Below, piece after piece: positions 1 to 20,126 of a DNA stretch of 24,335 bases. Location of the stretch: positions 1 to 24,335 of the IMG/VR virus record IMGVR_UViG_3300046703_000335. One strand, given 5' to 3'. The notes under the pieces are model-generated. The model was not told the DNA's origin. It saw nothing but the letters and a program-made list of their open reading frames with translations, and ran no database searches. Source of the stretch: a virus. Numbering within the stretch: position 1 is the stretch's first letter; the number at the start of each line of letters is the position of its first letter. The position numbers and the translations under genes were made by a program.

Positions 1-89
1 GTACCAGAAGTAGCTATAGCTACGAATATCCCATTACCATAGCACACTGAACTCCAGCTATTATCCGCTGCTGAAGTTCTTGAAGTCCA
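1..89 (-). repeat. Start of propeller block 3 (cut by edge)
   Basis: A third array opens at the Trp codon at 89 with the same signature (SSVCYGNGIFVAIA) and runs off the window. Its preceding linker, with VISNGRTW and GNVGIGVTGP, matches those before blocks 1 and 2. Confidence 0.7.
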
Positions 90-3000
90 AGTTCTCCCAT
101 TGGAAATGACTTGATCAGCTGATATTGTATCTTGTACATCAAGAGCAGTGACAGGACCAGTTACTCCGATACCTACGTTACCATTATCAAGTATTGATAC
201 TTTAGGGGCACCAGTTGAATCAGCTACTTGGAGAGCCATTCCAAGACCTGTACCAGAACCATGAACATCGAGACGTGCAGAAGGACTTATTCCTGTCACG
301 CCAAGACCTATACCTACATCACCAGAAAAAATAGTCGGTCCATTATACTTATTGTTTGTAGGAGGTGTGTAAGTAAGAGCCTTACCGTTGGTCATTACCC
401 TATTACCTGTACCAGTTTGTGCTATAGCTACAAAAAGACCATTTCCATAACAAACGGAGTACCAGTTATTATCCGCTGCACTGGTTTGAATAGCCCAGTT
501 GATTCCATCTGATGAGGTCATCACCCTGTTACCTACCCCACTTTGAGCTACAGTAACAAACAATCCGTTTCCATAACAAACCGAAACCCATTGATTATCC
601 GCTGCACTGGTTCTAACTGTCCAATTGATTCCATTTGGACTGGTCATTACCCTATTATTCGTACCCGAAGCCGCTACAGCAACAAATAATCCGTTTCCAT
701 AACAGATGCCATACCAGTTGTTATCCACTGCACTGGTTTGAATAGTCCAGTTGATACCATCGGAAGAGGTCATCACTCTATTACCAGTACCACTATAGGC
801 TATAGCAACAAATAATCCGTTTCCATAGCACACTCCAAACCAGTTGTTATCCGCTGCACTGGTTCTAATTGTCCAATTGATTCCATTTGGACTGGTCATT
901 ACCCTGTTACCCGTACCACTATAGGCTACAGCAACAAATAATCCGTTTCCATAACAGATGCCATACCAGTTATTATCCGCTGCACTGGTTTGAATAGTCC
1001 AGTTGATACCATCGGAAGAGGTCATCACTCTGTTCCCAGTACCACTACTTGCTACGGCTACGAATAAGCCATTACCATAACAAACGGAGTACCAATTATT
1101 ATCCGCTGCACTGGTTTGAATAGCCCAGTTGATTCCATCTGATGAGGTCATCACCCTGTTACCTGTTCCTGTACCTGCTACGGCTACGAATAAGCCATTA
1201 CCATAGCAGACACTATACCATTGGTTATCAACAGCAGAAGTTCTTGTGGTCCAGGTTCTTCCACTGGATATGACTTGATCAGCAGATATTGTACCTAATA
1301 CATCAAGAGCATAATTAGGACCGGTTACTCCGATACCTACGTTACCATTATCAAAGATAGACAACTTAGCAGAGCCATTTGAATCCGCTACTTGAAAAGC
1401 CATCCCTGTAGCTGTTCCGGAACCATGCACATCTAATCTGGCAGATGGACCGGTTGTACCAATACCTACATCACCAGTACTTTTAATACGTGCAGCAATT
1501 CTACTACCACCTGGATGAACAACACTAATCTGCATACCTACTCTGGGGTACACACTCCAAGATTCATTTCCTATATCAGTTTCGCATATGCTCTGTATAG
1601 ATGCTTCTCTGGTTTCTATACGTAACGCCAGTTTAGTACCAGCTTGATTGTTCGCAGTAGGAGCTCCTATAGTGCTTAGTGCTAATACAGGAGGAGTAGT
1701 GGTTACATCATAAAGGTGTAACTTACTAAGTGGACCGGTTACTCCGATGCCTACATTTCCATTATCAAGTATTGATACTTTAGGGGCACCAGTTGAATCA
1801 GCTATTTGGAGAGCCATTCCAAGACCTGTACCAGAACCATGAACATCGAGACGTGCAGAAGGGCTTATCCCTGTCACGCCAAGACCTACACCAATGTCAC
1901 CAGTAAAGATAGTAATACCATTATATTGATTGTTTGACGATGGACCATCGTTCAAGGCCTTACCGCTGGTCATCACTCGATTACCAGTACCTGTAACTGC
2001 TATTACTACAAAAAGCCCATTATTATAGCATATGCCACGCCAGTTATTATCTGCTGCGGAAGTTTGAATAGCCCAGTTAATACCATCTGGACTGGTCATC
2101 ACTCGATTACCAATACCAGTAAATGCCACAGCTACAAAAAGCCCATTGCCATAACACAATGAAATCCAGCTATTATCTGCTGCTGAATTTCTTAAAGTCC
2201 AATTAAATCCATCTGGACTGGTCATCACTCGATCACCAGTGCCTGAAGTGGCTACTGCTACAAGAAGTCCGTTGCCATAGCATACTGAACGCCACTCATT
2301 ATCCGCAGCACTGGATCTTGCGGTCCAGGAGATTCCATCTGGACTGGTCATCACTCGATTACCAGTACCTGAATAAGCTACCGAAACAAACAAACCATTA
2401 CCATAGCATACTGAACGCCATAGATTATTTTGGATATTACTTCCCATATTCCAAATAATTCCATCTGAACTGGTCATCACTGCATTACTTGTACCGGAAG
2501 GCGCTATTGCCACGAATAAACCGTTACCATAACACACAGATATCCAACCAAGATCTATATTAGCGGTTTGAGATGTCCAAATAATACCATTTGGACTGAT
2601 CATCACTCTATTACCAACCCCGCTACTTGCTACTGCTACAAACAACCCATTACCATAACATACGGAATTCCACATATTATCCGCTGCACTGGATCTAAGA
2701 GTCCAGTTGATACCATCAGGAGAGGTCATCACCCTATTTCCAGTACCTGTATCTGATATTGCTACGAATAAACCATTACCATAACACACGCTATACCAAT
2801 CATTATCCGCAGCACTGGTTTGGATCGTCCAGGTTCTACCGCTGGAAATGACCTGATCAGCAGATATAGTGCCCAGTACGTCAAGAGCACTAACAGGACC
2901 AGTTACTCCAATACCTACATTTCCATTTAATGTTGATATAGGGCTAATACCTAAAGTCTGAATTCCTGTATATGACGGTATAAAATCAGCGATTCCTGCC

Positions 3001-3476
3001 CCAATGACCGCAGCACCCTTAATACCTATGTACCGATATCCGGAAATTTTAAATGGCTTAGTAAATGCTCCTGTAGATGCACTAAATGTTAAGATACCCG
3101 TCTGATAGTCAAATATCCAGTTTGAAATGTCCGTAGGGAAAATTTCGGTATTATTATTATCATACAAATGTACTTTGTATAAATCCCCATATTTATCACT
3201 AATCCAATCTTTCAATCTATTACCACCTGAATAGGCATAATAGCATTGTTGACTCGCTACTGAGGTATCTTCCGTTAATGTGAATAAAGTATACTGTGAG
3301 GCCACTCCAGCAGCTACTGCTACCGCTGGATCAGATGAGATATTCTCAACCCAAATCTCACTATTATGGACATTAACAGTGTTGTCTCCGAATTCTTCAT
3401 AGAATCCTTTAGAACTTGAAGTAGCCCTTTTATTTATTAATGTTTTAAAAGATTTATCCTCTTTAGACCAAGCCAC
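1..3476 (-). CDS. Giant beta-propeller repeat fibre protein (C-terminus beyond window)
   Basis: The minus-strand frame starts at a GTG at 3476 and stays in phase with the coding repeats down to base 1, giving about 1158 residues with no stop seen; the C-terminus is outside the window. I chose GTG because GGGAGG lies 5 bases upstream and no ATG follows nearby. The N-terminal ~180 residues are not repetitive. Then come two complete blocks of seven 42-residue units with the core W.SVCYGNGLFVAVA, G-T-G-N-R-V-M-T-S and an Asp-box-like SPDGINW, and a third block begins at base 89. Linkers carry GNVGIGVTGP...ALDVLG motifs typical of phage and bacterial fibre proteins. Seven tandem Trp/Asp-box-like units suggest seven-bladed beta-propellers (inference). 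It is probably a tail-fibre or appendage protein exposed on the virion. It is the last gene visible in the leftward fibre module. Confidence 0.85.
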   Translation of the reverse strand, partial: MAWSKEDKSFKTLINKRATSSSKGFYEEFGDNTVNVHNSEIWVENISSDPAVAVAAGVASQYTLFTLTEDTSVASQQCYYAYSGGNRLKDWISDKYGDLYKVHLYDNNNTEIFPTDISNWIFDYQTGILTFSASTGAFTKPFKISGYRYIGIKGAAVIGAGIADFIPSYTGIQTLGISPISTLNGNVGIGVTGPVSALDVLGTISADQVISSGRTWTIQTSAADNDWYSVCYGNGLFVAISDTGTGNRVMTSPDGINWTLRSSAADNMWNSVCYGNGLFVAVASSGVGNRVMISPNGIIWTSQTANIDLGWISVCYGNGLFVAIAPSGTSNAVMTSSDGIIWNMGSNIQNNLWRSVCYGNGLFVSVAYSGTGNRVMTSPDGISWTARSSAADNEWRSVCYGNGLLVAVATSGTGDRVMTSPDGFNWTLRNSAADNSWISLCYGNGLFVAVAFTGIGNRVMTSPDGINWAIQTSAADNNWRGICYNNGLFVVIAVTGTGNRVMTSGKALNDGPSSNNQYNGITIFTGDIGVGLGVTGISPSARLDVHGSGTGLGMALQIADSTGAPKVSILDNGNVGIGVTGPLSKLHLYDVTTTPPVLALSTIGAPTANNQAGTKLALRIETREASIQSICETDIGNESWSVYPRVGMQISVVHPGGSRIAARIKSTGDVGIGTTGPSARLDVHGSGTATGMAFQVADSNGSAKLSIFDNGNVGIGVTGPNYALDVLGTISADQVISSGRTWTTRTSAVDNQWYSVCYGNGLFVAVAGTGTGNRVMTSSDGINWAIQTSAADNNWYSVCYGNGLFVAVASSGTGNRVMTSSDGINWTIQTSAADNNWYGICYGNGLFVAVAYSGTGNRVMTSPNGINWTIRTSAADNNWFGVCYGNGLFVAIAYSGTGNRVMTSSDGINWTIQTSAVDNNWYGICYGNGLFVAVAASGTNNRVMTSPNGINWTVRTSAADNQWVSVCYGNGLFVTVAQSGVGNRVMTSSDGINWAIQTSAADNNWYSVCYGNGLFVAIAQTGTGNRVMTNGKALTYTPPTNNKYNGPTIFSGDVGIGLGVTGISPSARLDVHGSGTGLGMALQVADSTGAPKVSILDNGNVGIGVTGPVTALDVQDTISADQVISNGRTWTSRTSAADNSWSSVCYGNGIFVAIATSG
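372..1253 (-). repeat. Propeller block 2: seven 126-bp units
   Basis: A second array of exactly seven 42-codon units, beginning 1578 bp downstream of the same point in block 1 and ending with the same kind of truncated unit (VMTNGKAL). Units here are more alike than in block 1, alternating between TSSDGIN and TSPNGIN versions, which suggests recent unit duplication. Confidence 0.85.
1735..1890 (-). repeat. Long direct repeat of linker (second copy 157-312)
   Basis: This linker stretch recurs at about 157-312, offset by 1578 bp. Between 1759 and about 1862 the two copies differ at a single base by eye (the c/t at 223 versus 1801). It encodes the SARLDVHGSGTGLGMALQ segment. The near-identity marks a recent module duplication or gene conversion inside the fibre gene. 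Confidence 0.8.
1950..2831 (-). repeat. Propeller block 1: seven 126-bp units
   Basis: Seven tandem units of 126 bp (42 codons), each starting at a Trp codon and holding YGNGLFV and VMTSPDG-like strings. Recognition strings such as gtcatc recur exactly 126 bp apart (2095, 2221, 2347, 2473). Units 3 and 4 are the most diverged (TANIDLGW, SNIQNNLW). The seventh ends in VMTSGKAL instead of continuing to a further unit. Confidence 0.85.
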
Positions 3477-3569: not shown

Positions 3570-5630
3570 CTATAACCCAACAATTACCATTTGAGAAGCT
3601 TTAGCAGCTGATGAGTTTCTTAATGTAACTTTAATAAATACCACACCATTCGAGTTAGTGGAAGTAGCTGTCCCGAAAGTAAGGGATAGTATACCTCCAC
3701 TACAACTACCATCATTTCGACAACCATTACCATCCCCAAAACTTCTGCCACAATCTAACCACACTGTTTCACTTGGTAACCTTACTTCAATATTCAAATT
3801 TCCACTACCCACAGCAGAAATATTTGTATAGAGTATACCGGTAAAAGTTATACGCATACTTGAATGTGCTACTCCAATATTTGAAGCCCAAACAATCACC
3901 TGATCTCCCGAAAAAGCGCTATAATCTGTACTAACCCCTTGTGCAGGTAAATAACCAGTTGTGTAATTTATTAAAGGATAATACCATGTTGAATTATACA
4001 GCTGTCCATTACCGTTTGTAAGTGCATCTGAGCTAACCCAATCACCCGTAGGATCACTATAGCCTACAGGAATAAGTGAAAAATCATTTGAAAGCTTCCA
4101 ACGATACTCTTCATCAAACATGGTTATGGTACCATTACTACTATAACCAACAGAATATGTATTTAGTAATCTATTCTGAGAGATTGATGTAGAAGAAGCA
4201 GTAGCACCATTAGGTTTAGTACCTGTTACAGTTAATCGAGAGTCTATACTGTATACATTTGATAAACTTATGGTAATCAAAGGGCTAAAAGCATAGGAGT
4301 CATTATATGCAAAAGTGGCTCCTGCAATTGCAATATTAGTTGAATTAATTCCAGACATAACATAAGAAATAGGATTTGTTGGACGGATTGCTTTATTTGC
4401 AATATTAGTTATAGTACTTGAGGAATCAAATGTATCCCCCGTTCCATAGTATCTAATTCCTGAAAGATATCGAGAACTTGATAAAGTATTCTGGGTCACA
4501 GTTGGCGTTGTCACTCCAGGTGTAGCATTGACATTATCATACCAAAAAAGTGAATCAGATGTCAGTTGATTCACTGTAGCGGTTTGATACCTCATAGCAT
4601 GTCTTTTAAAACCCTCTGATGTCTGAGTGTAATTAATCTGTGCATTAGCTTTTCGCCATATTGTATTATAAATTACTATCGAAGTGATCTGTATATTACC
4701 CGTTATACCTACCCCAGATAAGATACTCCGAAAAGAATCGTCAACACCATCTAAGACATGATAAACTGTGCCTTCATCACCACCAAATGTTGACCCACAT
4801 TTAAATGTTGTTGTTGGGTTTGCATTAGATAGGTTATAAGTATTATCAATAACATAATCTGTAACTGTATTCCCTGCAACTACGCCATTCTGGTACCATT
4901 CTGCAGTAAGACCTGTAGGTAATATTGCTGAATACTTAGTTGTACTACTCAGAACTAAAGAGCTAGTTAAGACTCCTGGTGGAGTGGGAGCTATAGCTAA
5001 TAAAATTTCGTTCACATCATCGAGACCATTAGTAACAAGCGTACTAGCTTCCCAAGGAAATATACCATCTGAAAAAGAACCATCAGTGGGTAATCCCATA
5101 GGCAACTGATTACCAAAATAGATACCAACGCCACCAGTTACACCCTGAAATCCTGTTAGCCCTTGAAATCCAGTGACACCCCCAGAACCTCCTGACCCGC
5201 CTGTAGAACCCATAGAGCCATCAGTACTTACACCAACACTTCGCCATATATCATTAGTATAATCATATCCCTGAATTTGTACAGAGTTAAGCATGCTAAC
5301 TTGATCAGCTAATGAAGGTATGTATCTTGTTTCTCCAGGATTAGCAGCATCCTCTAATCCATTAACCAATACACCCTTTAATCTTAAATAGAAGTCACTG
5401 TCATTAGTAAGACCTATAACTTCTCTTTTAAATTTATAAAAAACTGATCTATTACTATAAGTAGCATCCGGGGAATTTAAAATGTATGAAACTACTAATG
5501 TTTCACCAAACATAGTAGGATCAGAAGACCAATACAAGTTAATAGCAGGATATAAAGTAGTAGGATCAAAATCCCAAAATATTTTTATCTCTGAATCATT
5601 ATAAGATATCTGAATCGATGGTGCTGCCAT
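3570..5630 (-). CDS. Fn3-like/collagen-linker virion structural protein
   Basis: 686 residues. The ATG is preceded by AAGGAG seven bases upstream. Residues 1-105 look like a fibronectin type III-like beta domain (paired Trp/Tyr strands, FYLRLKGVLVNG). About 118-137 is a short motif, GYDYTNDIWRSVGV. Residues 140-170 are a Gly-rich, partly collagen-like linker ([16 protein letters not shown]). The remaining ~500 residues are Thr/Ser-rich and beta-predicted, with GLDDVNEILLAIAPTPPG at about 202-219 and a small Cys cluster (LDCGRSF, GCRNDGSC) near residue 640. There is no signal peptide or membrane segment. It is probably a virion appendage or base component whose N-terminal domain may dock to the particle (inference). 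It sits directly upstream of the propeller fibre gene, separated by 93 bases. The exact role is unknown. Confidence 0.75.
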   Translation of the reverse strand: MAAPSIQISYNDSEIKIFWDFDPTTLYPAINLYWSSDPTMFGETLVVSYILNSPDATYSNRSVFYKFKREVIGLTNDSDFYLRLKGVLVNGLEDAANPGETRYIPSLADQVSMLNSVQIQGYDYTNDIWRSVGVSTDGSMGSTGGSGGSGGVTGFQGLTGFQGVTGGVGIYFGNQLPMGLPTDGSFSDGIFPWEASTLVTNGLDDVNEILLAIAPTPPGVLTSSLVLSSTTKYSAILPTGLTAEWYQNGVVAGNTVTDYVIDNTYNLSNANPTTTFKCGSTFGGDEGTVYHVLDGVDDSFRSILSGVGITGNIQITSIVIYNTIWRKANAQINYTQTSEGFKRHAMRYQTATVNQLTSDSLFWYDNVNATPGVTTPTVTQNTLSSSRYLSGIRYYGTGDTFDSSSTITNIANKAIRPTNPISYVMSGINSTNIAIAGATFAYNDSYAFSPLITISLSNVYSIDSRLTVTGTKPNGATASSTSISQNRLLNTYSVGYSSNGTITMFDEEYRWKLSNDFSLIPVGYSDPTGDWVSSDALTNGNGQLYNSTWYYPLINYTTGYLPAQGVSTDYSAFSGDQVIVWASNIGVAHSSMRITFTGILYTNISAVGSGNLNIEVRLPSETVWLDCGRSFGDGNGCRNDGSCSGGILSLTFGTATSTNSNGVVFIKVTLRNSSAAKASQMVIVGL

Positions 5631-5677: not shown

Positions 5678-7315
5678 TTAAGATCTATAAGACTCTAAAA
5701 TCTTATTACAAACATCCTCTACCGAAGGTAGATATTGATCCCAATCACCATCTTTAGTCTCTGCAGTAGCGCCACCCTCTAACCAAGTTGTAGGACGCTG
5801 ATCACAATCATCTAAGGTTAGTTTCTTGTACAAACTTACTGCTTTATGATAGTTACTTATTTTTCCATCAGGACATCTTCTAAAAGGTAGAATATGATCT
5901 GGATGCTTACATGTAGGTATTACAAATATCCAGTTATCAAAAGCTCCAGCTATATGTATTGGGGCAGAATCATTAGAGAGGAGCACTGGGGATCTTGAAA
6001 TTGCAGCGATAAGAGTTCCGATCGTAGTTCGATCTATAAGATTTATAGAATTAGCTGGAAGATCTAATTGAAAAGATCCCCTATTACTATGATCATCTGT
6101 TCCTATTAAACATACCGGGATCTCTTTTGATATCTTATCAACTACCTCTTGCCACCATTCAATAGGAAAAGTCTTCGAAGCCCAGTGTCGCCCTGGATGT
6201 ATCATAACTGCCTTTTTAAGATCAAAACCATTAAGAACATTGTCTAACTCTAAGTTATCTTCTTCCGTTATATCTAATTTTATTATCTTATCTGATAAAG
6301 GAAGTATTCTCTGCAGAGATGCTATAGAGCAGTAGTCTACAGTATGGCACATAAGATTTGAGACAACTGAATAAGTTACAGTTGTAGGATCAGGAAAAGT
6401 TTTCATTTCGTAAAAAGGAATATGTTCCGATGGAATGAATTCCTTATGCTCATATATGTCAAAATGATCTAAGTGGTTAAATAAACGGGGCCAATGTGTG
6501 GTAACTATAATGTCTGCTGTATCCTTGTAGATTTTATTTATAAATCGTAAGGTAGGTTCAGCACAAATTTGATCCCCCATACCCCCAGAGACTACCAAGG
6601 CTATTTTCCTTTTGTACCTATATCCTGGGCTATTTTCTTTCCACTTTTTCAAATCTCCTTGTACAATTTCTAATATTTCCCCTGGCTTAGTAAAATAATG
6701 ATACCCTGCATAGTGTATAATGTATGAAGCGTAGCGTATTTCCCCACTAAAGTCTAAACAAGTCATTCTATTAAAATGATATGAAAGATCGAACATTAAT
6801 GAAGAATCTTCTTTTGTCCTATAAGATTCCTCTAAGGATATCTTAAGATTAAGATATCCTTGTTCATAAAAATTTGAAAATTCTATTTCAGGTTTTTTAA
6901 AGTATCTTCTATGACATTTACTTATAACTAATACCCCAGTATTATAGTACTTACCATTCCATACTATCTTAGAAGGATCTATACCATATGCTTTAGCAGT
7001 TTCTATAAGAGAATATTCTCTTTGCACAAATTTTGCTTCATTAAAAGCCCCGAGCTGATTGTACGGGACTATTTCAAAAAGATCAGGACAATCTTCCCGT
7101 ACAATTAAATCTGTATCTAAGTAAATGACTCTATCATAACTATTTAAAATATTATATATTGCAAATTTTTCCCAATGAGGAGTAGTCTTACAGTCATTTA
7201 AGACAATAAAGTCTGCACCGATTCGCTCTGCATAATTCTTTAAAGTAGGGTGGGTGAAATTTGCAAGGTCTGAAAATTCCTCTCCTATACAGATGGTAAC
7301 TATTGCTTTTTTCAT
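5678..7315 (-). CDS. Two-domain glycosyltransferase (GT8-like + GT9-like)
   Basis: 545 residues. The N-terminal half (about 1-230) resembles GT-A enzymes of the GT8 type: an AIVTICIGEEF opening strand, a DTD metal/nucleotide-sugar motif at 67-69 in VIYLDTDLIV, YYNTGVLVI at 123-131, and a late His motif HYAGYHYFTKP from 201. The C-terminal half (about 236-500) resembles the GT9 heptosyltransferase family: ALVVSGGMGDQI at 239-250, MIHPGRHWASK at 371-381, and the nucleotide-sugar-binding NDSAPIHIAGAF at 448-459. Two complete transferase domains in one chain suggest sequential addition of two sugars (inference). A weak AAGGA lies 10 bases before the ATG. It is notable that the gene sits between two structural genes, not in the sugar cluster at the right. 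That placement suggests the substrate may be a neighbouring fibre, but the acceptor is unproven. Confidence 0.85.
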   Translation of the reverse strand: MKKAIVTICIGEEFSDLANFTHPTLKNYAERIGADFIVLNDCKTTPHWEKFAIYNILNSYDRVIYLDTDLIVREDCPDLFEIVPYNQLGAFNEAKFVQREYSLIETAKAYGIDPSKIVWNGKYYNTGVLVISKCHRRYFKKPEIEFSNFYEQGYLNLKISLEESYRTKEDSSLMFDLSYHFNRMTCLDFSGEIRYASYIIHYAGYHYFTKPGEILEIVQGDLKKWKENSPGYRYKRKIALVVSGGMGDQICAEPTLRFINKIYKDTADIIVTTHWPRLFNHLDHFDIYEHKEFIPSEHIPFYEMKTFPDPTTVTYSVVSNLMCHTVDYCSIASLQRILPLSDKIIKLDITEEDNLELDNVLNGFDLKKAVMIHPGRHWASKTFPIEWWQEVVDKISKEIPVCLIGTDDHSNRGSFQLDLPANSINLIDRTTIGTLIAAISRSPVLLSNDSAPIHIAGAFDNWIFVIPTCKHPDHILPFRRCPDGKISNYHKAVSLYKKLTLDDCDQRPTTWLEGGATAETKDGDWDQYLPSVEDVCNKILESYRS

Positions 7316-7350: not shown

Positions 7351-10300
7351 TTATAATACACGTTCAATAACAGCATTTTGAATCAAAAGAATATTAGTTG
7401 CACTAGCCGTTTGCCATTGAGCGGTTATCTTTACTATTGGAGATACACTAGTAGTATCAACTACAGATGTAGCATCCCCACCCTGATATGCCTTTGTTTC
7501 TGCAGTATCTGAGGTATGTACTTGAAAAATCCCTGTTGATATATATGTTCCATTAGAACCTGTTGACCGTACTGTTGCGATGCCATAGAATTCCATAAAT
7601 GTCTGACTTATAGCTGTACCACTCGATGCTAATAAAATAGATTGACCAGCATTAGCTCCTATATACATCTTAAATGTTAAGGTACCTGAAGTAGCTTGAC
7701 TCTGAAGGGTACCAAAAAAATAAAATTTAAAAGTTGAACCAACAAACAAAGAACCCTGAGGTAAAGTGTATGTTAGAATAGTAGTTTCAGCGTCAGTATT
7801 TGAGACACTTATTTGCGTAGAAGCTGCGGTAATCCCAGAACTAACTCCCTGTATGCCTGTTAAACCAATTAATCCTGTCATGCCTTGAGAGCCGGTAACT
7901 CCTTGGGAACCTGTTAAGCCAATTAATCCGGTAGCTCCTTGAAAACCCACTAAACCGGTTAAGCCTTGAGAGCCAGTCTGACCGACTAACCCAGTTATAC
8001 CTTGAGACCCAGTTTCTCCTTGATCTCCTTGGTTACCATCAAGACCATCTATACCTTGTAAGCCGGTAGCTCCTTGAGTACCTGTCAACCCAATTAATCC
8101 AGTAGTACCTTGTATTCCCTGAAATCCAGTTTCACCAATAACTGAAAGGCCCGTGATACCTTGTGATCCCGTAATTCCTGTTATTGAAAGACCAGTGGCT
8201 CCCTGGGCACCAGTTTCACCCTTTACACCGGTAACACCAGAAAGACCTGTCAAACCCTGATGACCGGTTTCTCCCTGATCACCTTGACTACCATCTATAC
8301 CTTGTAAACCTGTAGTGCCTTGAGTACCCGTTAACCCAATTAAACCTGTAGTGCCTTGTATTCCTTGAGTACCAGTTATTCCCTGAGATCCAGTTTCCCC
8401 TATGACTGAAAAGCCTGTGATACCCTGAATACCTGTTTCACCCGTGATAGATAAACCTGTGATACCCTGAGTACCTGTTTCACCCTTCACACCTGTAACA
8501 CCGGAAAGACCTGTTAGTCCTATTAATCCTGTTTCTCCCTGTATTCCTTGAGATCCAGTAACTCCTTGTATCCCCTGAGCACCAGTTAGTCCTATTTTTC
8601 CAGTTTCTCCAACAATGGAAAGACCTGTAATTCCTTGAGAGCCTGTATTTCCAACTATACCAGTTTCTCCTATAATAGAAATACCGGTTGTTCCATGAGA
8701 GCCCGTCTGACCAATTACTCCGGTTATGCCTTGGAATCCTGTTTCTCCAACAATGGAAAGACCTGTAATTCCTTGGAACCCCATAATACCCTGAGAGCCC
8801 GTCTCACCTTGAGCCCCTGTTAATCCTATTATTCCTGAGGCACCTTGAATACCCGTTTCACCAACTATTGACAGTCCTGTGATACCTTGAGAACCGATTG
8901 TTCCTAAACCTGTTATTCCCTGGGCACCTGTAGCTCCTTGAAAACCTGTTTCACCTATAATAGAGAGACCTGTGATACCTTGAGTACCTGTCTCTCCTAT
9001 AACTCCGGTTGTTCCCTGAACACCTGTCCCACCAACCACAGATATGCCCGTTAAACCTTGAGTGCCTGTCTGACCGATTAACCCGGTTATACCTTGATCT
9101 CCTTGGTTACCATCAAGACCATCTATACCTTGTAAGCCTGTAGCTCCTTGAGTACCCGTCAACCCAATTAAACCAGTAGTGCCTTGTATTCCTTGAATAC
9201 CTGTTTCTCCCTGAGATCCAGTTTCTCCTATGACGGAAAGGCCCGTTACACCCTGATGACCGGTTATTCCCTGGAATCCTGTCTGACCAACTATTCCGGT
9301 TATTCCTTGAAACCCGGTTTCACCAATAACGGAAAGGCCTGTGATACCTTGTGACCCAGTTATTGAGAGACCTATGACTCCTTGAATACCGGTTTCACCC
9401 GTGATAGATAAACCTTGAATACCGGTTTCACCCTTCACACCTGTAACACCATAAAAACCGGTCAAGCCCTGATGACCGGTTTCTCCCTGATCACCTTGGT
9501 TACCATCAAGACCATCTATACCCTGTAAGCCTGTGGCTCCTTGAGTACCCGTCAACCCAATTAAACCAGTAGTACCTTGTATTCCTTGAGTACCTGTGAT
9601 ACCCTGAAATCCAGTTTCACCAATAACTGAAAGGCCTGTGATACCTTGGAATCCTGTCTGACCAACTATCCCGGTTATTCCTTGAAACCCAGTTTCACCA
9701 ATAACTGAAAGGCCCGTAATACCTTGTGACCCAGTTATTCCAGTTATTGAAAGACCTGTGGCTCCCTGGACACCGGTTTCACCCGTGATAGATAAACCTT
9801 GAATACCGGTTTCACCTTTCACACCTGTAACACCAGAAAGACCTGTTACTCCTATTAAGCCTGTTACTCCTTGAACTCCAGTTTCACTCTGTATACCTGT
9901 AATACCAATTACAGATGCACCGGTATAACCTTGAATACCGGTCAAGCCCTGAGAACCAGTTTCTCCAATAGCAGTTGCGGTACCAGGAATACCAGTGATT
10001 CCTTGAGAACCTGTATATCCAATCAGCCCTTGGATTCCCGTTTCTCCAACTACTGAATAACCTGTTATTCCCTGAGATCCCTGAGATCCCTGAGGTCCAA
10101 TTTCTCCAGATACCCCTGTATCTCCCTGAAAACCCATTGAGCCTTGAAGACCGGTATCTCCCTGTATGCCAATTTGACCCTGACAACCTGTAGGACCCGG
10201 TAAACCTGTATCTCCTTGAGGGCCACCAAATGCTCCAGTTATACCTACTAAGCCGGTCACCCCAACAATGGATAAACCTGTTTGACCCTGAGAACCTGTA

Positions 10301-10605
10301 TCTCCCTGACAACCTGTATCTCCCTGAGGACCTGTAGGGCCTGGTAATCCTGTATCTCCCTGAGGACCACCAAATGCTCCAGTTATACCAACTAAGCCGG
10401 TCACCCCAACAATGGATAAACCTGTTTGACCCTGACAACCCGTATCTCCCTGACAACCTGTATCTCCCTGATAACCTGTAGGGCCTGGTAATCCTGTATC
10501 TCCCTGAATACCCACAGAACCCTGTATCCCTTGAATACCTTGAGGTCCTTTTATTGATATATTAAGAAATTTATTACTAACAATACGTTCGTCTATATAT
10601 GGCAT
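7351..10605 (-). CDS. Giant collagen-like fibre protein (1084 aa)
   Basis: The start ATG has AGAGG five bases upstream. A short head (1-18) is followed by about 900 residues of G-X-Y repeat (19-923), overwhelmingly of the GIT, GET, GVT, GIQ and GLT type, so Thr fills the Y position. Proline is scarce except near the N-terminus (GLPGPTG). At least 20 regular breaks of the form GLSIVGETG or GLSVIGETG, with four residues between glycines, punctuate the helix. Residues 924-1084 form a non-repetitive C-terminal beta-rich domain (FKFYFFGTL, VKITAQWQ) ending IQNAVIERVL, a plausible trimerising or receptor-binding knob. Collagen-like proteins are common in phage tail fibres; a role as a long trimeric fibre is inferred. 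The Thr-rich G-X-T pattern is like that glycosylated in spore protein BclA. Shadow frames open through the repeat are artefacts. Confidence 0.88.
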   Translation of the reverse strand: MPYIDERIVSNKFLNISIKGPQGIQGIQGSVGIQGDTGLPGPTGYQGDTGCQGDTGCQGQTGLSIVGVTGLVGITGAFGGPQGDTGLPGPTGPQGDTGCQGDTGSQGQTGLSIVGVTGLVGITGAFGGPQGDTGLPGPTGCQGQIGIQGDTGLQGSMGFQGDTGVSGEIGPQGSQGSQGITGYSVVGETGIQGLIGYTGSQGITGIPGTATAIGETGSQGLTGIQGYTGASVIGITGIQSETGVQGVTGLIGVTGLSGVTGVKGETGIQGLSITGETGVQGATGLSITGITGSQGITGLSVIGETGFQGITGIVGQTGFQGITGLSVIGETGFQGITGTQGIQGTTGLIGLTGTQGATGLQGIDGLDGNQGDQGETGHQGLTGFYGVTGVKGETGIQGLSITGETGIQGVIGLSITGSQGITGLSVIGETGFQGITGIVGQTGFQGITGHQGVTGLSVIGETGSQGETGIQGIQGTTGLIGLTGTQGATGLQGIDGLDGNQGDQGITGLIGQTGTQGLTGISVVGGTGVQGTTGVIGETGTQGITGLSIIGETGFQGATGAQGITGLGTIGSQGITGLSIVGETGIQGASGIIGLTGAQGETGSQGIMGFQGITGLSIVGETGFQGITGVIGQTGSHGTTGISIIGETGIVGNTGSQGITGLSIVGETGKIGLTGAQGIQGVTGSQGIQGETGLIGLTGLSGVTGVKGETGTQGITGLSITGETGIQGITGFSVIGETGSQGITGTQGIQGTTGLIGLTGTQGTTGLQGIDGSQGDQGETGHQGLTGLSGVTGVKGETGAQGATGLSITGITGSQGITGLSVIGETGFQGIQGTTGLIGLTGTQGATGLQGIDGLDGNQGDQGETGSQGITGLVGQTGSQGLTGLVGFQGATGLIGLTGSQGVTGSQGMTGLIGLTGIQGVSSGITAASTQISVSNTDAETTILTYTLPQGSLFVGSTFKFYFFGTLQSQATSGTLTFKMYIGANAGQSILLASSGTAISQTFMEFYGIATVRSTGSNGTYISTGIFQVHTSDTAETKAYQGGDATSVVDTTSVSPIVKITAQWQTASATNILLIQNAVIERVL
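7837..10551 (-). repeat. Collagen-like coding repeat array
   Basis: A 9-bp-based (G-X-Y) array with larger duplications inside it. A block encoding GLIGLTGTQGATGLQG plus GIDGLDGNQGDQG occurs around 8020-8110, 9090-9190 and 9480-9580. A version lacking GLDGN lies near 8270-8350. The [17 protein letters not shown] segment near 10,150-10,400 is also duplicated. The nested pattern points to repeated unequal exchange. Confidence 0.85.
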
Positions 10606-11416: not shown

Positions 11417-11466
11417 ATTTTAGGTGTTTAATGATGAATTTATTTTAGGTGTTTAATGACGAATTT
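11417..11466 (-). repeat. 25-bp tandem duplication across a stop codon
   Basis: Two copies (11417-11441 and 11442-11466) differ at one base (t/c in aatgatg versus aatgacg). The upstream copy encodes the last residues NSSLNT and the TAA of the RCC1-like gene. The second copy lies after the stop, in the intergenic gap. Confidence 0.85.
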
Positions 11467-12677
11467 ACTTTCCAAGAATTACCTTGCTTCTGATATATAT
11501 TTATAACTCTTTTCCAAGTACCACCAATATTTACAAAATAAGCTGGCCATCTATACCAAGTATTTGCAACATTTACAGGTATTCTATTTGTACCTGAACC
11601 CATATGGAGAAAAGAATGTGCTCCTACTACCTGAACTGGAGAGGAATATGATACAGCATCATTATGCCCAAGACGACCATTTGCATTGGATCCCCATGCC
11701 CATACTGAACCATCTGCTTTTAATGCCATGGAAAAATTATTGCCTATATTAAATTCTAAAAAACTATGATTTCCCACTACTGCTACTGGGGATGAACTGT
11801 CAGTTCTTGTATTATCTCCTAATTGACCAAAAGCATTAACTCCCCATAGCCATAATGAACCATTTTCTTTTAAACCTCCACAAGCACCAGATAACTGATT
11901 ATCTGTAAGCCCCGCAGATATGTATATAAAAGAATGTGAACCTATTACAGCTACAGGAGATGATTTATTTGTCGTTGTCCCATCACCTAATTGTCCATTA
12001 GCATTATGTCCCCAGGACCATGCCGATCCATCTATCTTTAATCCAATAGAGAGACCATTTGTAAAGCCTCCTGCTGCTACTTGACAAAAAGAATGGTTTC
12101 CTATTAATGCTACAGGAGATGATTTGTCTATTGTTGTATTATCACCTAATTGTCCAGAGTTATTATTCCCCCAAGACCATCCTATTCCATCAGATTTTAA
12201 AGCAATGACGTGTGTTGCTGCAGCATGTATCTTAGTGAAAGAATGATTACCCACTACCTGAACTGGAGAGGAATATGGTAATACTGTATTATTACCTATT
12301 TGCCCTTTACTATTATCTCCCCATCCCCAAATAGACCCATTATCTTTTAATCCAAATTCATTATTAGAAGTTGTACAAGCTAATATAAAGTTATGATTAC
12401 CCACTACCTGAACTGGGGAAGATTTATTAACTAATGTATTGTCCCCTAATTGTCCAGAGGCATTATTCCCCCAAGACCATAACTGACCATTTGATTTAAG
12501 CCCGATACTTGAGCTATCAGATCCAGAGAGTAACATAAAAGAGTGATTACCAACTACTTGTACTGGAGAGGATCTATCAGTAATAGTATTGTCCCCTAAA
12601 CTACCTACGCTATTATCTCCCCACATCCAGCATTGCCCATTTAGTTTAAAAGAAAAACCTTGGCTGTTACAAGACAT
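11445..12677 (-). CDS. RCC1-repeat beta-propeller protein
   Basis: 410 residues, with AAAGGA seven bases before the ATG. It has seven RCC1-type units of about 50 residues between residues ~17 and 366, each with a W.WG.N..GQLGDNT core followed by SSPVQVVGNHSF. Seven RCC1 units make one closed seven-bladed beta-propeller in the known family. The C-terminal ~45 residues leave the pattern (TWYRWPAYFVNIGG, then TWKRVINIYQKQGNSWK), a Trp-rich tail like those ending phage minor structural proteins. In eukaryotes RCC1 is a Ran exchange factor; here a binding or scaffold role on a virion appendage is more likely (inference). The gene sits between the 1262-residue collagen-like gene (11 bases upstream) and the 261-residue gene. 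Confidence 0.87.
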   Translation of the reverse strand: MSCNSQGFSFKLNGQCWMWGDNSVGSLGDNTITDRSSPVQVVGNHSFMLLSGSDSSSIGLKSNGQLWSWGNNASGQLGDNTLVNKSSPVQVVGNHNFILACTTSNNEFGLKDNGSIWGWGDNSKGQIGNNTVLPYSSPVQVVGNHSFTKIHAAATHVIALKSDGIGWSWGNNNSGQLGDNTTIDKSSPVALIGNHSFCQVAAGGFTNGLSIGLKIDGSAWSWGHNANGQLGDGTTTNKSSPVAVIGSHSFIYISAGLTDNQLSGACGGLKENGSLWLWGVNAFGQLGDNTRTDSSSPVAVVGNHSFLEFNIGNNFSMALKADGSVWAWGSNANGRLGHNDAVSYSSPVQVVGAHSFLHMGSGTNRIPVNVANTWYRWPAYFVNIGGTWKRVINIYQKQGNSWKVNSSLNT

Positions 12678-12688: not shown

Positions 12689-15600
12689 TTAAGCAATATA
12701 TTGGATATAAATGGCATTATCTGGGTATCCCGCAGGATTTGGAGGAGCACTTGTGCCTGAGGATACATTCAAACCAACTATCCCAGTTACTCCTTGAAAT
12801 CCGGTTTCTCCCTGAGGACCACCAAATGCTCCTGTAGGACCTACAGGACCAGTACTTCCTGGGGGACCACCAAATGCTCCGGTTATACCTACTAAACCTG
12901 TTACACCTACTAACCCTGTCACACCAATGATGGATAAACCTGTTTGTCCCTGAGAACCTGTAGTTCCTTGTATACCTGTAGTTCCTTGTATACCTGTAGT
13001 TCCTTGAATACCAGTTACTCCTTGAACACCCAAAATAATAAGAGTAGTTTCTACATAGGCTGCACGAGTAGTCCCCTGATAAGTCCAATTTATATTTCTA
13101 AGATTAGTAGCGCTATTAAACCCTAAAACTCTAATCACAATTCGATCGGTACTAAGAATAGATATATCATTCACAATTGTATATCTAATCGTATAACTCG
13201 TGTCTATTGCGGTAAGTCCAGGAGTAGCATCTGTTGTAAATAATACAGTATATGTACCACTAACTGATTTAGTACATACTTCATATTTAACCGTACAAGA
13301 AACATTTGTTGCAGAAAACGTCCCAAAAAACGACCATATACCTGCTGATATTGTTGTTTGTCCTGGATATCCTGATACAGTAATATAACTATTAATTGGA
13401 ATTCCATTTGGATCAGCATTTGTAATAGCTGTTAAAGTCTCAGTTGTTTCACTGCCTGTTGCAGGTACTCTATTTAGCTTATCGCATCGTACAGAGAGAA
13501 TTGCAGTAGAAGAAGTATTTTCTTGAGTTAAAGTACTTGTTACTGCTAGAGTAATCGTTGTTGCTGTAACAGATCTTATTTCTACAGTTTTATTATTGCT
13601 TGTTGTCCCAGTAATTGTAATTTTACAACGGGCACTCCAACCATCTGTTATAAAGCTTCCAGCACCATTTCTCACTATTGTTGCAGGTACAGCATTATTA
13701 AAAGTAAAGGTATCACTAACGGATGCATTAGATACAGGAGTTGTTTCTGTACTTATAGTACTATCAAAATAGAGTCTTTGACCGGTGACTGCTCCTTGAA
13801 GGCCTTGAATACCAGTTGACCCAATTAATCCGGTGACTCCTTGAACTCCGGTGACTCCTTGAGATCCAGTTAACCCGATTAGTCCAGTGACTCCCTGAAA
13901 TCCGGTGGGACCAATTAATCCGGTGACTCCTTGAGATCCAGTCAAACCAATTAGTCCAGTTAATCCTTGAGATCCAGTTAACCCTATTAAGCCCGTGACT
14001 CCTTGAAATCCGGTGGGACCAATTAATCCGGTGACTCCTTGAGATCCAGTCAAACCAATTAGACCAGTTAATCCTTGGGAGCCAGTTAACCCGATTAGTC
14101 CGGTGACTCCCTGAAATCCTGTGGGGCCTATTAATCCGGTGATTCCTTGAGACCCAGTTAACCCAATTAATCCAGTCTCTCCTTGAGATCCAGTTAACCC
14201 AATTAATCCGGTAGTTCCTTGAGATCCAGTTAACCCAATTAATCCGGTAGTTCCTTGAGATCCAGTCAAGCCTATTAATCCGATGTCTCCTTGAGATCCA
14301 GTCAAGCCAATTAATCCGGTGTCTCCTTGAGATCCAGTCAAGCCAATTAATCCGGTGATTCCTTGAAATCCGGTGTCTCCTTGAGATCCAGTTAACCCAA
14401 TTAGACCAGTGACTCCTTGAGATCCGGTTTCACCTTGAAACCCAGTCAAACCAATTAGTCCAGTGACTCCTTGAGACCCAGTTTCTCCTTGAGATCCAGT
14501 CAATCCTATTAAGCCAGTGACTCCTTGAAATCCGGTGGGACCTATTAATCCAGTGATTCCTTGAGACCCAGTAAGTCCTATTAATCCAGTGTCTCCTTGA
14601 GATCCAGTGTCTCCTATAAGTCCTGTGGAACCTATTTGACCAGTAGGGCCCATTCCAACTGTCACTCCATGCTCAATGCAACTTGAACAGATACCCATAG
14701 ATGATACATCGGGAGAACCAATAAGTTTTTCTATTATTAAGTGGAGATAATCATTACCTATTACATTATTTTTATTAATAGTAAAGTCGAATTCAGAAAA
14801 ATCATATTGAGCAGGAGAAACAAAAGTTTTAGTTACTATAGAGGTATAGTATGGTGCCAAGATACCAACATTGGTATCCTTGTTAAATCCTTTATAAGAC
14901 AATCTTAGTGAAAGCTGAGCCCCCGCCGAAAGGGGCGTGTTAAGAATAGCACCAATTTTTAAGTTTATATCCCCAGCGCCATTCCATTCAATAGGCATAA
15001 CAATTGTAGAATCTATTTTTTCAGAATCAATACTATTAAATTTTAATACGGGGATATCTCCAAAGACATCAGAATCCACATTAAAAGTTCTCCAGGATTC
15101 CATGGGTAGAATTTTAACAAATGTTTCAAAAGAAGCTAAACCAGGTCCAGTAGCGCCTATTAGACCATTTATGCCTGTAGACCCCCGTAACCCTGTAATA
15201 CCCTGTGCTCCTGTTGCCCCTTTAGGACCACCAAATGCCCCGGTCACCCCTATAATACCAATACCTGTAGTGCCCTGTGCTCCTGTAGAGCCATAAGCCC
15301 CTTCCAGAACAATTGAAGACAAATCACCACTTAATATCTGAGTCTGTCTACCTACGGAATCTGTTTTCCAATATGCCTTGATATTGTGCGTACCAACAGG
15401 TAAATCTGAGGTTACTTGATATAAGATTTCAGATCTTTCTCGATTATCAGAAAGATATTCTGAAAAGAATGGACCTGTTTCTCCATCTGATTGCAAGAGA
15501 TAGCTAACTGTCTGAGACCCTACCGAGATATTTTTATATCTGAGAGACAAAAGTGATAATATTTTACCTGATTGAGTAAGAGTTATTGAGGTACTTAATC

Positions 15601-16477
15601 CTGTTATAGGTAAATAACTGAGGAATTCAATACCGGTAGGAGATAATCCGGTAAATCCTAATACACGCTCTACGAGCATATTATCCATGATTATCTGGGG
15701 ACCTGTAATTCCTTGTGCTCCTGTAAATCCTTGTGCTCCTGTAAATCCGATAGGGCCTATAAGACCGGTATCTCCCTGAGGACCACCGAAAGCTCCAGTT
15801 ATACCTACTAATCCTGTTACTCCTACTAACCCTGTTACACCAAGGATGGATAAGCCTGTCTGCCCCTGCCAGCCTGTAGGACCAGGTAATCCGGTATCTC
15901 CCTGAGGACCACCAAATGCTCCTGTAGGACCTACAGGACCAGTGCTTCCTGGAGGACCACCGAATGCCCCGGTTACTCCAATTAAACCGGTCACACCTCT
16001 TAACCCAGTTGTACCAAGGATGGATAAACCTGTTTGTCCCTGAGAACCTGTAGTTCCTTGAGGACCCCCAAAGGCTCCTGTAGCACCAGGTAAGCCTATT
16101 CCACCTGTAAGACCAATGAGACCTGTTTCTCCCTGTACTCCCGTTAAACCTGCATCTTTACTTATTCCTGTGACTGAGTCATTTACATAAGATACCAGAG
16201 ATTCTATAGCACCTTGAACGTTAGTTGAACCAGCACCTGTTACGGGGGAGAAACCTACATTGATAGCAGACAAACTATAGATATATGTGGCAAGATTATT
16301 AACTGCGCCAGTTAGACCTGATATATTCCCTTCAAGGATGTTTATCGCTCCAGTGAGACCAGCAATGTTATAATTGGCATTAGTGAGCCCCGCTTCTAAA
16401 TTATAGATATCCCCTTGCATACCAGTTATTTCATTTTGGAGCTCCTGGGAGAGCCATCTTTTAGTTATACGACTCAT
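12689..16477 (-). CDS. Giant multidomain collagen-like fibre protein (1262 aa)
   Basis: The ATG has AAGGA six bases upstream, overlapping the end of the endonuclease gene. Residues 1-105 are a helical, Leu/Ile-zippered head ([29 protein letters not shown]). Collagen-like stretches lie at about 110-260, 395-445, 608-895 and 1150-1240. They alternate with globular beta domains at about 261-394, 446-607 and 896-1149. The chain ends [23 protein letters not shown] split by a Gly-rich hinge. A CSSC pair at 597-600 stands just before the longest collagen run. The third globular domain seems to hold an inserted small beta module at about 920-997 ([18 protein letters not shown]). A long, trimeric virion fibre is the likely role (inference). 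The start and full length are well supported. Confidence 0.87.
13793..14656 (-). repeat. 36-bp collagen repeat with 108-bp higher-order unit
   Basis: The unit [10 protein letters not shown](V/D/T)T, 12 codons long, is tandemly repeated. A 36-codon super-unit containing [12 protein letters not shown] repeats 108 bp apart (tccggtgggacc at 13901 and again at 14009). The low divergence implies recent slippage or unequal exchange. Confidence 0.85.
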
Positions 16478-16486: not shown

Positions 16487-17569
16487 TTATTTAAGACAAT
16501 CATATAAAATCTTATTAACTTGATCTTTACCTAAATAGTATGGTATCCTAATAAGATTTATCTTATTATTAATACAGTATACGTCTTTTATTTTATCCCG
16601 TATTTTACACTCAATAAAGTTTGAAAACTTTTTGTGAGCATAAGGGCTGAACTGGAAGTGGTACGCTCCATCAAACTCTATGCAGGTATTCTTCTCAGGT
16701 ATAAAAAAATCAAATCTTAGTCGTATCTTATACTTACAACCAGGAAATGATTTATTTTTAATCGGGTTGTATCCCATCTCTTGAAAAATCGTGTCTAAAA
16801 GTTTCTCTCCTCTACTACCAGTACATTTAGGGCATCCAGAACCTGAAAGATGTAAATGAGGTGTTATATTGAAATTCCCATGCTTTTTACATGTTAATAT
16901 TACTTCCTTGTCTCCCCTTATATACGAAACATTAGCATATGAATACCTACTCCTATGAATCTCTATTGCTTTTTCTATAAATGTTTGGGTATTATAGCGG
17001 TACCCTGAGCATATTAAGCAAGCCTCGTCAGAATAGTATAAGTTGTTAGGAATTATCTCAAAGGGGCCGTGCTTACCACATACTAATGTTACTCTTGTAT
17101 ATTTATTTATGTAGTTAACCTGACTACAGCCATATTTATCCCCGAATTTTGATCTAACTCGTTTAATAAATTCAAAATTGTCCAGATGATAAGACTTTGA
17201 ACACTTAGCACAACCGCAACCCGATAGATGTGACTGTGCTAACTGATTGAAGAGTCCATGCTCAAAGCAGATTATATCTATTGGGTAATTTACCCCACAA
17301 AACGAGTCTTCTACATATATATACTTTCCGTTATGTATCTTATCAGCCTTAGTTACAAATTCTTTAAAAGTCAATTCCTTGCCTGAGCAATAATTACAAC
17401 CATAACCATATAGATGGCTCTTTGCATTTTTAAAGAAGACACCATGTTCTTTACAAATTATCTTTATCGGTTGACGGCTATCCTTATATAAGGTCTCAGA
17501 ATAATCATACTTATCCCCATGGACAGTTTTAGCCTTATTGAGATATTCTTGAGTAGTTAGCTTCTTCAT
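16487..17569 (-). CDS. Zinc-repeat endonuclease, EDxHD/VSR-like (putative homing nuclease)
   Basis: 360 residues. Four tandem ~50-residue units carry H-G-D-K-Y-D-Y-S-like starts, then C-K-E-H-G and a closing GC..C. The likely zinc ligands of the first unit are C39, H42 or H52, C58 and C61. Unit 3 has lost the middle His and Gly but keeps C184 and C187. Residues 253-360 form a nuclease domain with E255, LRFDFFI (D287), CIEFDGAYH (E298, D300, H304) and RDK at 324-326. This pattern is typical of PD-(D/E)XK nucleases of the EDxHD/VSR-like type found as free-standing homing endonucleases in phages (family knowledge). The ATG overlaps the previous stop as ATGA and uses a GAGG inside that gene. It lies between virion genes, a usual setting for such nucleases. 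The target site is unknown. Confidence 0.8.
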   Translation of the reverse strand: MKKLTTQEYLNKAKTVHGDKYDYSETLYKDSRQPIKIICKEHGVFFKNAKSHLYGYGCNYCSGKELTFKEFVTKADKIHNGKYIYVEDSFCGVNYPIDIICFEHGLFNQLAQSHLSGCGCAKCSKSYHLDNFEFIKRVRSKFGDKYGCSQVNYINKYTRVTLVCGKHGPFEIIPNNLYYSDEACLICSGYRYNTQTFIEKAIEIHRSRYSYANVSYIRGDKEVILTCKKHGNFNITPHLHLSGSGCPKCTGSRGEKLLDTIFQEMGYNPIKNKSFPGCKYKIRLRFDFFIPEKNTCIEFDGAYHFQFSPYAHKKFSNFIECKIRDKIKDVYCINNKINLIRIPYYLGKDQVNKILYDCLK

Positions 17570-18446: not shown

Positions 18447-18463
18447 TAATTAAAAGATTATTA
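18447..18463 (-). repeat. 17-nt intergenic motif, copy 1
   Basis: TAATAATCTTTTAATTA on the minus strand, starting within the fcl stop codon. It matches copy 2 at 19430-19446 at 16 of 17 positions. It may be a transcription signal shared by adjacent genes; the role is not known. Confidence 0.35.
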
Positions 18464-19399
18464 TCGAGATATCGAAAATCTTGAAAGAAAATCGTAATAA
18501 GAGAATCTTATACCATCTTTTAGATCAGTCATAGACTTCCACCCCAATGAATGTATCTTGGAGGAATCGATAAGTTTTCGTGGGGTACCATCAAGTTTAG
18601 TAGGATCAGTAGTTATTTTACCTTGATACCCAACTACTTCTTTAATAACATCAGCAAGATCACGTATTCGTATTTCAATACCTGATCCAACATTAATGGT
18701 TTTATTTTCATTATAATTTTCCATCAGAAATAGACAAGCATCTGCCAGATCATCAACATAAAGAAACTCTCTTAATGGGTTTCCAGTTCCCCAGATCATC
18801 ACTTCCGGTGAATTATTGATCTTAGCGTCATGAATCCTCTTAAGAAGTGCTGGAAGAACATGAGAGTTCTCCGGATGATATGAATCTCCTACTCCGTAAA
18901 GATTAGTAGGCATACAACTTATGAAGTTAGTCCCATATTGTCGATTATAACTTTCACACATTATTATCCCAGCTATTTTTGCAAGAGCATAGGGAGCATT
19001 AGTAGGTTCAAGTTGTCCAGACATAAGACTATCTTCCTGGATCGGCTGAGGAGCATATTTTGGAAAAATACAGGAGCTACCTAAAAGCAATAGCTTTTTC
19101 ACAGCATTCTGGTATGAAGCTTCTATTATGTTATTCTGAATTTGAAGATTAATGTAAATAAATTCTGCTGGATAGGTATTATTTGCGTGAATACCGCCGA
19201 CTTTAGCTGCAGCTAAAAAAACATATTCCGGATTTGTTTTTTCGAAGAATTTAAAGGTAGAGTTCTGATTAGTAAGATCGAGTTCCTGATGGGTAGCAGT
19301 TATAACGTTCTCAAAGCCTTCAGTTTTAAGTCTTCTAACGATAGCTGAACCAACAAGGCCCGTATGACCTGCGACATAGATCTTATCTTTGATATTCAT
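18461..19399 (-). CDS. fcl: GDP-L-fucose synthase
   Basis: 312 residues, the usual length for the family. It is a short-chain dehydrogenase-type epimerase/reductase that turns GDP-4-keto-6-deoxy-mannose into GDP-L-fucose with NADPH in the cytosol. The Rossmann motif is AGHTGLVGS at 10-18. The catalytic set matches that of E. coli GMER with an offset of one: S108, C110, Y137, K141 (YALAK) and H180. AAAKVGGI at 63-70 and [15 protein letters not shown] are also family signatures. No GDP-mannose 4,6-dehydratase (gmd), which makes its substrate, is in the window, so that step must come from elsewhere in the phage or from the host. A hairpin overlaps its ribosome site. It supplies an activated sugar to the nearby glycosyltransferases (inference). 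Confidence 0.93.
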
Positions 19400-19403
19400 A
19401 TGA

Positions 19404-19431
19404 TATAATTCCTCCTATAGAAGGAATTATA
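19404..19431 (-). promoter_or_regulatory. Inverted repeat overlapping fcl ribosome site
   Basis: Ten-base arms (TATAATTCCT and AGGAATTATA in the transcript) with an eight-base loop. The ribosome site GGAGG straddles the loop end and the 3' arm, 11 bases before the ATG, so a folded hairpin would partly hide it. The stem has only three GC pairs, so it would be weak and might respond to temperature or ribosome traffic (inference). There is no U-tract, so a terminator is unlikely. Confidence 0.4.
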
Positions 19432-19446
19432 ATCAAAAGATTATTA
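19430..19446 (-). repeat. 17-nt intergenic motif, copy 2
   Basis: TAATAATCTTTTGATTA on the minus strand, three bases after the FkbM-like stop. It is the partner of 18447-18463. Its end overlaps the outer base pairs of the hairpin before fcl. Confidence 0.35.
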
Positions 19447-19448
19447 CA

Positions 19449-20126
19449 TTACGTTTTATAGATATCGTTACGTATAAATTCTGCATCTGACCATATCCAC
19501 TTTTCTGGCAACTGCTCATGTTCACAAGAAAACCCCAATAAATCCATATACTTTTTCATCTCAGGAAATAAAGATTGACCAGTATAAGTTTCTTGCCCCC
19601 ATATCTCGGTATGTATGATTTTAACATCTGACAAATTTCTACCGAGACTTCTCAAGGCAGAAAGTTCAGCACCCTGCAAATCCATCCATATTATATCAGG
19701 ATTAGGGATCTTAAAAGTCTCCTGCACATCAATAAGTCTCATACATGGTATCTCAATTTCATCCTGAACATATGTTTCATGTGGGTACGTCCCATTAGAA
19801 ACAAATATAGAGGATGCCTTTGGATTTCCGTCAGCCCATGAAGTTAGTGTTTTCTTTTGATTAATGGGATGGAATTTAACTAACCCAGTATGGTCATTTA
19901 TACATATTGGGATGAAAGTTATTCTTGGTTTATTTACTATGTTTTTTGCGCAATCATGAATACACGCTGGATTTGCTTCAAAAGAATATATCTGGGCATT
20001 AGTAAAATAATCAGCAAGTGCAATAGATTCTGTACAATCACCCGCCCCAACATCATATATGACTTTTATTGTATCCTTATCTAACCATTTACTTACCTTA
20101 GTTAAAAAAGCACTCGTTATTGACAT
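19449..20126 (-). CDS. FkbM-family methyltransferase
   Basis: 225 residues. The SAM-binding motif is VIYDVGAGDCTES at 22-34, with the acidic end of strand 2 at E50 (IYSFEANP). The FkbM signature IIWMDLQGAELSALRSLG lies at 145-162, followed by IHTEIW. FkbM-type enzymes (Methyltransf_21) O-methylate sugars or polyketide hydroxyls; next to fcl and glycosyltransferases a sugar target is the natural guess. The ATG shares a base with the TAA of the preceding small reading frame (TAATG). A GGGG within that frame may serve as its ribosome site. Confidence 0.85.
   Translation of the reverse strand: MSITSAFLTKVSKWLDKDTIKVIYDVGAGDCTESIALADYFTNAQIYSFEANPACIHDCAKNIVNKPRITFIPICINDHTGLVKFHPINQKKTLTSWADGNPKASSIFVSNGTYPHETYVQDEIEIPCMRLIDVQETFKIPNPDIIWMDLQGAELSALRSLGRNLSDVKIIHTEIWGQETYTGQSLFPEMKKYMDLLGFSCEHEQLPEKWIWSDAEFIRNDIYKT

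Follow-up and report, generated by a model that had tools for sequence, protein, structure and literature searches.

The window analysed here, a stretch of 24,335 bases, is the start of a linear viral record of 210,408 bases (G000:C1:1-24335). At its left edge lies a gene for a predicted tail fibre protein that reads on the minus strand towards the contig end and is cut there (Table 1). Two exact patterns of 36-40 bases from this gene matched no overlapping viral contig, and the opposite end of the 210,408-base record holds no continuation of it, so the number of propeller blocks in the window phage is given as three or more. The linkers of the protein match the tail fibre family phrog_9942 and the gene lies in the tail region, where the genes at 7351-10605 and 12689-16477 encode collagen-like tail fibre proteins. 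The record also holds contractile tail sheath, Baseplate_J and gp5-like genes, and the nearest relatives of the sheath are from an uncultured phage of 485 kb and from Tunturiibacter phage Tunturi_5; the three tail genes and the large-phage relatives of the sheath point to a jumbo myophage. Searches with Terminase (PF03237) and Gp23 gave no match, and the Gp23 control was equally empty.

Table 1 The fibre gene, its parts and its upstream neighbour (window positions)
Feature	Position	Strand	Details
Fibre gene	3476..3	minus	1158 codons present; GTG start at 3476-3474; C-terminus past the contig end (open at contig base 1)
Shine-Dalgarno GGGAGGT	3487-3481	minus	4 nt ahead of the fibre-gene GTG; graded good
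N-terminal domain	3003..3476	minus	Residues 1-158; common to phage proteins with other C-terminal parts
Linker 1	2847..2951	minus	LNGNVGIGVTGPVSALDVLGTISADQVI; repeat as in linkers 2 and 3
Propeller 1	1965..2846	minus	Seven 42-residue units, residues 211-504; 28 predicted strands in 216-504
Linker 2	1269..1964	minus	GNVGIG(V/T)TGP..(A/K)L(D/H)V repeats; phrog_9942 tail fibre protein, E=1e-11
Propeller 2	387..1268	minus	Seven 42-residue units, residues 737-1030; 28 predicted strands in 743-1031
Linker 3	105..386	minus	Repeat type of linkers 1 and 2; phrog_9942, E=3e-5; 76% identity to part of linker 2
Third block, first 34 residues	3..104	minus	SNGRTWTSRTSAADNSWSSVCYGNGIFVAIATSG; cut by the contig end; unit HMM 60.5 bits
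Upstream gene	3570..5630	minus	686 aa, phrog_8578; the nine-propeller gene is directly preceded by its counterpart, 62.6% identical over 514 aa

Several other genes lie close to the fibre genes. The protein encoded at 11445-12677 (minus strand, 410 aa) contains seven RCC1 stretches and belongs to a second, unrelated propeller class, and an HNH homing-endonuclease-like gene at 16487-17569 (minus strand) adjoins the fibre genes. A glycosyltransferase, a nucleotide-sugar epimerase, an FkbM methyltransferase and similar proteins are encoded at 5678-7315 and 18461-21594 (minus strand); a role in modifying glycans of the fibre or of the surface is possible. Elsewhere in the record, the gene directly next to Baseplate_J encodes a protein of 1,469 aa that has a Ycf48-like PSII_BNR propeller (L209:7119-11525, minus strand; G000:C1:111054-115460). 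A Terminase-like protein (L214:3-2336, minus strand) and another head-region protein (L213:4013-6874, minus strand) are split by LAGLIDADG/intein domains.

The fibre ORF contains 15 CY(G/N)NG cores, seven in nt 2846-1965, seven in nt 1268-387 and one at nt 104-3. Within both complete blocks the spacing of the cores is exactly 42 residues, and each block consists of 7 × 42 codons with zero insertions. This bears out what had been proposed from the letters alone (hereafter the sequence-only reading), namely two complete blocks, each with exactly seven units of 42 residues, and a third block starting at the edge; the blocks were there delimited as 372-1253 and 1950-2831, which are the same 882-nt blocks in a phase shifted by 15 nt. 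Tandem Repeats Finder independently returned a period of 126 bp, with 6.6 copies at 390-1220 and 3.6 and 2.6 copies at 1966-2832. The exact spacing, together with the unit counts of relatives described below, excludes a chance origin of the units. The mean blade-to-blade identity of block 1 is 64% and that of block 2 is 79%, both above the 60% that marks highly repetitive propellers, although the survey that uses this value worked with medians. A two-blade amplification in block 2, suggested by a 252-bp Tandem Repeats Finder period, was rejected (lag-2 permutation, p = 0.39).

The conserved residues of the unit are Gly, Trp, Met, Ser and other scaffold residues. The Asp-box-like motif noticed in the sequence-only reading is present in a short form, with 12 matches to [ST]x[DN]GxxW, which is one residue shorter than the strict Asp-box (S/T)x(D/N)xGx(T/S)(W/F/Y); the strict form had zero matches, and therefore the protein is not filed as an Asp-box (BNR) propeller. 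The cut-off of DUF6242 (PF19755), 29 bits, was passed by the window protein (35.8 bits) and by the nine-propeller counterpart described below (81.2 bits). Each block opens with a special first unit (SSGRTWT or SNGRTWT), and the last unit of both complete blocks is truncated after NRVMT(S/N)GKAL, which confirms the shared truncated ending seen earlier.

To see what fold these units adopt, we modelled block 2 alone with AlphaFold2 using 13 relatives and obtained 28 strands (7 × 4) with a pLDDT of 92.2 and a pTM of 0.90. In the model a strand at the N-terminus of the block (E6-9), contributed by the special first unit, is built into a sheet. This arrangement would account for both irregular units, as in a velcro closure the N-terminal strand supplies the strand that the truncated last unit is missing and so completes the last blade. 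In a full-length model of the single chain, both blocks again formed domains of 28 strands in which most residues had a pLDDT above 90, whereas the linkers had pLDDT below 50, and the linkers and N-terminus were placed without confidence (whole-chain pTM 0.41). Among the matches listed to solved folds, the seven-bladed Ycf48 gave the top TM-score, up to 0.72, in a full-length alignment (2xbg and 5ojp; 13-16% identity); a PDB sequence search with the fibre protein gave no match. Judged from the models, closure of the blocks as rings is supported by the strand pairing, the pTM and the full-length match to the ring-shaped Ycf48. Thus the predicted fold and the bead architecture of the window protein are well supported, in agreement with the earlier proposal of seven-bladed propellers strung like beads.

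The N-terminal domain is 69, 54, 48 and 45% identical to those of L067, L174, L175 and L176, respectively, and it also matches Atu_ph07-type jumbo phages and phrog_9417 (E=3e-6). In L174, L175, L176 and L202 it precedes C-terminal parts of quite different kinds. Attachment domains whose tips can be exchanged show this pattern, suggesting that the N-terminal domain is probably the attachment end. The closest viral structure match is a propeller (62% identity, TM 0.95) in the phage protein A0A6J7WX40 of BFVD, named an intramolecular chaperone auto-processing domain protein, and a relative in Caulobacter phage KSC is annotated as a tail fibre. Peptidase_S74 had no match in the record, in which the fibre gene is without its C-terminus, or in the counterpart. 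Matches to the fibre propeller also include baseplate wedge proteins of S-CAM9.

Loci L067 and L027 share 4,800 identical bases and together give one ORF of 4,452 residues in a phage contig of 210,938 bases; the same ORF is likewise open in two further assemblies (three in all). The 69% identity of its N-terminal domain, together with the similarity of the gene upstream (Table 1), identifies this ORF as the positional counterpart of the window gene, and it shows how a complete gene of this type can look. From the N-terminal domain onwards, it encodes four propellers, about 1,200 residues that are mostly collagen-like GXY (Pfam Collagen, E=6.5e-143), five propellers and a C-terminus of about 60 residues. 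There are nine blocks, with seven units in every one. The collagen-like shaft suggests that the counterpart is a homotrimer, which would display 27 propellers per fibre, and by way of this shaft the window protein is probably a trimer as well. The GIGVTGP linkers that had been taken to join the propellers are restricted to the window protein and some relatives; the counterpart has other linkers.

To ask how general the number seven is, a unit HMM was run on about 160 ORFs of fetched viral and bacterial loci. Of the 212 complete blocks in related ORFs, 172 consist of seven units, 11 of 14, nine of six, one of eight and one of nine; the remainder are shorter pieces, some of which are a seven split by one weak unit. 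As an offset for a search that favours matches to the seven-unit query, one multiple-of-7 block was dropped per locus, and 47 blocks of seven, three of 14 and none of 8-13 units were left. Clean blocks of strong units do occur, though rarely, with six (L038, L047, L050, L055 and L086), eight (L104) and nine units (L041), in a kind of sequence whose near-identical units are liable to be miscounted in assemblies. The sevenfold count that had been called strict therefore holds in the window and in all nine blocks of the counterpart, but for the family the word slightly overstates the case; seven units is a family property, as a closed ring requires, and not an absolute rule. We take the 14-unit blocks as putative fusions of two sevens rather than fourteen-bladed rings.

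Chains of propellers are also found elsewhere in the family. At least two seven-unit equivalents are present in 36 of the 162 related ORFs, alongside proteins with a single propeller, and tandem propellers such as those of GH74 are known (PMC2716378), so a chain in one polypeptide, initially called unusual, is not unique to this gene. In L009, a contig of 246,901 bases, three consecutive ORFs carry 3, 4 and 4 seven-unit equivalents, with some 14-unit blocks that have no linker. Contigs assigned to bacteria (L095-L173; Bacteroidota, Patescibacteria, Actinomycetota and many other phyla) carry the same propellers, several of their proteins having two or three; the fold is thus not phage-specific, and its diversification may serve other ends. 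The same propeller is found in a collagen-repeat protein of the giant virus Hokovirus HKV1 (BFVD A0A1V0SF56; 52% identity, TM 0.94).

Across 1,523 aligned units, the entropy at unit positions 16, 18 and 32 is 3.6, 3.7 and 3.8 bits, respectively, whereas most other columns are strongly conserved. For closely similar blade pairs, pN/pS at these three positions was about 1.7-1.8 when the mean synonymous rate is taken as reference, and the bootstrap intervals lay above 1.5; the value was obtained by simple counting over pairs that are not independent and that mostly compare blades of one protein. Because many pairs lie within one protein, part of this signal may reflect a division of labour between blades instead of an arms race. 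The overall pN/pS was 0.34 and that of position 33 was near 1.1; outside positions 16, 18 and 32 the unit is under purifying selection. A similar pattern was seen in viral and genome loci.

In the predicted fold, position 16 precedes strand A, position 18 is the second residue of strand A and position 32 follows strand B. This placement, which derives from the strand order and not from measured coordinates, would bring the three together near the central channel, on a single face. The loops of this face vary more than the loops of the opposite one (p = 0.003). The triplets at the three positions are all different in the complete units of the window (14 of 14), and 42 of 43 are different in the counterpart. 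Diversification by a retroelement was considered and rejected: RVT_1 (reverse transcriptase) had no match in the three phage records searched, and the variable sites carry E, Q and M, residues of a kind that the AAY template of such systems does not yield.

We consider it likely that the window gene encodes a fibre of a jumbo myophage, probably trimeric, along which diversifying propellers for receptor or glycan binding are strung. In such a fibre, the N-terminal attachment domain would be followed by separate velcro-closed seven-bladed propellers on GNVGIG-type fibre linkers, and the three fast-evolving residues of each blade would lie on one face, at its D-A and B-C loops. With seven blades, each propeller would then expose as many as 21 variable positions in a ring. 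These faces may bind host surface molecules, most likely glycans, and the many weak sites would add up to a strong multivalent adhesion, making the protein an adhesin of the virion; blade turnover combined with selection at the three sites would change its specificity. More tentatively, the whole may be viewed as a modular recognition array, in which a rigid scaffold is copied along the chain, a three-residue code per blade is under diversifying selection and each trimer offers a repertoire of binding faces (nine per chain in the counterpart), with specificity changed by blade turnover and with no reverse-transcriptase gene found in the searched records.

An unlikely alternative in our estimation is that the propellers serve chiefly as structural spacers or as stiff beads by which the fibre is lengthened, with specificity residing in the missing C-terminal tip and the variable residues drifting freely. 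The missing C-terminus of the window protein, the alternation of propellers with a collagen shaft in the counterpart and the high conservation of most blade positions would all suit such spacers. However, freely drifting residues would equal synonymous sites, whereas positions 16, 18 and 32 outpace them; moreover, the counterpart stops about 60 residues past its last propeller and has no further large tip, and family members with a single propeller exist.

The blades are near-identical and show no unique conserved catalytic set, the strict Asp-box is absent and no glycosidase family was matched in Pfam; we therefore regard it as improbable that the propellers are enzymes, glycosidases or related, which would make the string a polysaccharide-degrading array, even though the Asp-box-like motif and the Ycf48/BNR-like fold recall Asp-box sialidases and the Asp-box propeller of the phage K1F endosialidase sits on a trimeric stem (PMC2716378, PMC4901313). 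Many relatives are found in bacterial contigs and may be secreted or cell-surface binders, and the window protein could similarly be made during infection and act off the virion. That is highly improbable, given the tail-fibre gene block, the fibre-type linkers, the N-terminal domain common to phage proteins and the collagen shaft of the counterpart. The string of receptor- or glycan-binding propellers on a tail fibre thus remains our preferred reading, and it makes testable the presence of many binding faces on one phage fibre, diversified with no obvious mutator. A very widespread but unnamed sequence of many viral and bacterial contigs, SPDGITWT...NNWxSVCYGNGLFVAVA, also gains a fold and a likely role from this reading.

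The component parts of this architecture are known: repetitive, phage receptor-binding, tandem, collagen-shaft and diversifying propellers have each been described. The receptor-binding protein Gp45 of phage phi11 is a homotrimer with one five-bladed propeller per chain (PMC4901313). It is like the window protein, for which the role is deduced, in being a host-recognition protein of a phage with a propeller in each chain whose N-terminal strand closes the last blade, and unlike it in having a coiled-coil stem and no propeller chain (PMC4901313). The phage protein A0A6J7WX40, compared here by its database name only, has the same propeller. Ycf48 and other Asp-box propellers (2xbg, 5ojp) share the seven blades, but the window protein is without the strict Asp-box and its blades are regular and near-identical (PMC2716378). 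GH74 has two seven-bladed propellers per chain and so shares the tandem trait, but it is an enzyme and forms no fibre (PMC2716378). Fibres of contractile injection systems combine beta-propeller lectins with collagen-like shafts (PMC12923769).

In the highly repetitive beta-propellers surveyed by Pereira and Lupas, blades that are more than 60% identical were amplified from one blade, with peaks at 7 and 14 blades in the WD40 class (PMC9218822). The sections of that survey considered here place these peaks in WD40 proteins, leave phages unmentioned and describe no bead chain with a collagen shaft (PMC9218822). A literature search of partial coverage found no experimental work on relatives and no description of a phage fibre with a propeller chain; phage adhesin propellers in the cited literature come one per chain, whereas the counterpart strings nine of the same fold. 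The most interesting part, in our opinion, is the three-residue variable code of each blade. In the WD repeats of the Podospora HNWD/het-e/het-d genes, four diversifying residues per repeat lie on the interaction face (PMC1805685). Those propellers belong to the unrelated WD40 family and act as fungal self/non-self receptors, but like the fibre propellers they combine a conserved repetitive scaffold with a few fast residues per blade, on a face that interacts in the fungus (PMC1805685) and presumably does so here. A propeller string with three fast residues per blade would thus resemble the fungal WD-repeat recognition genes, on the fibre of a virus.
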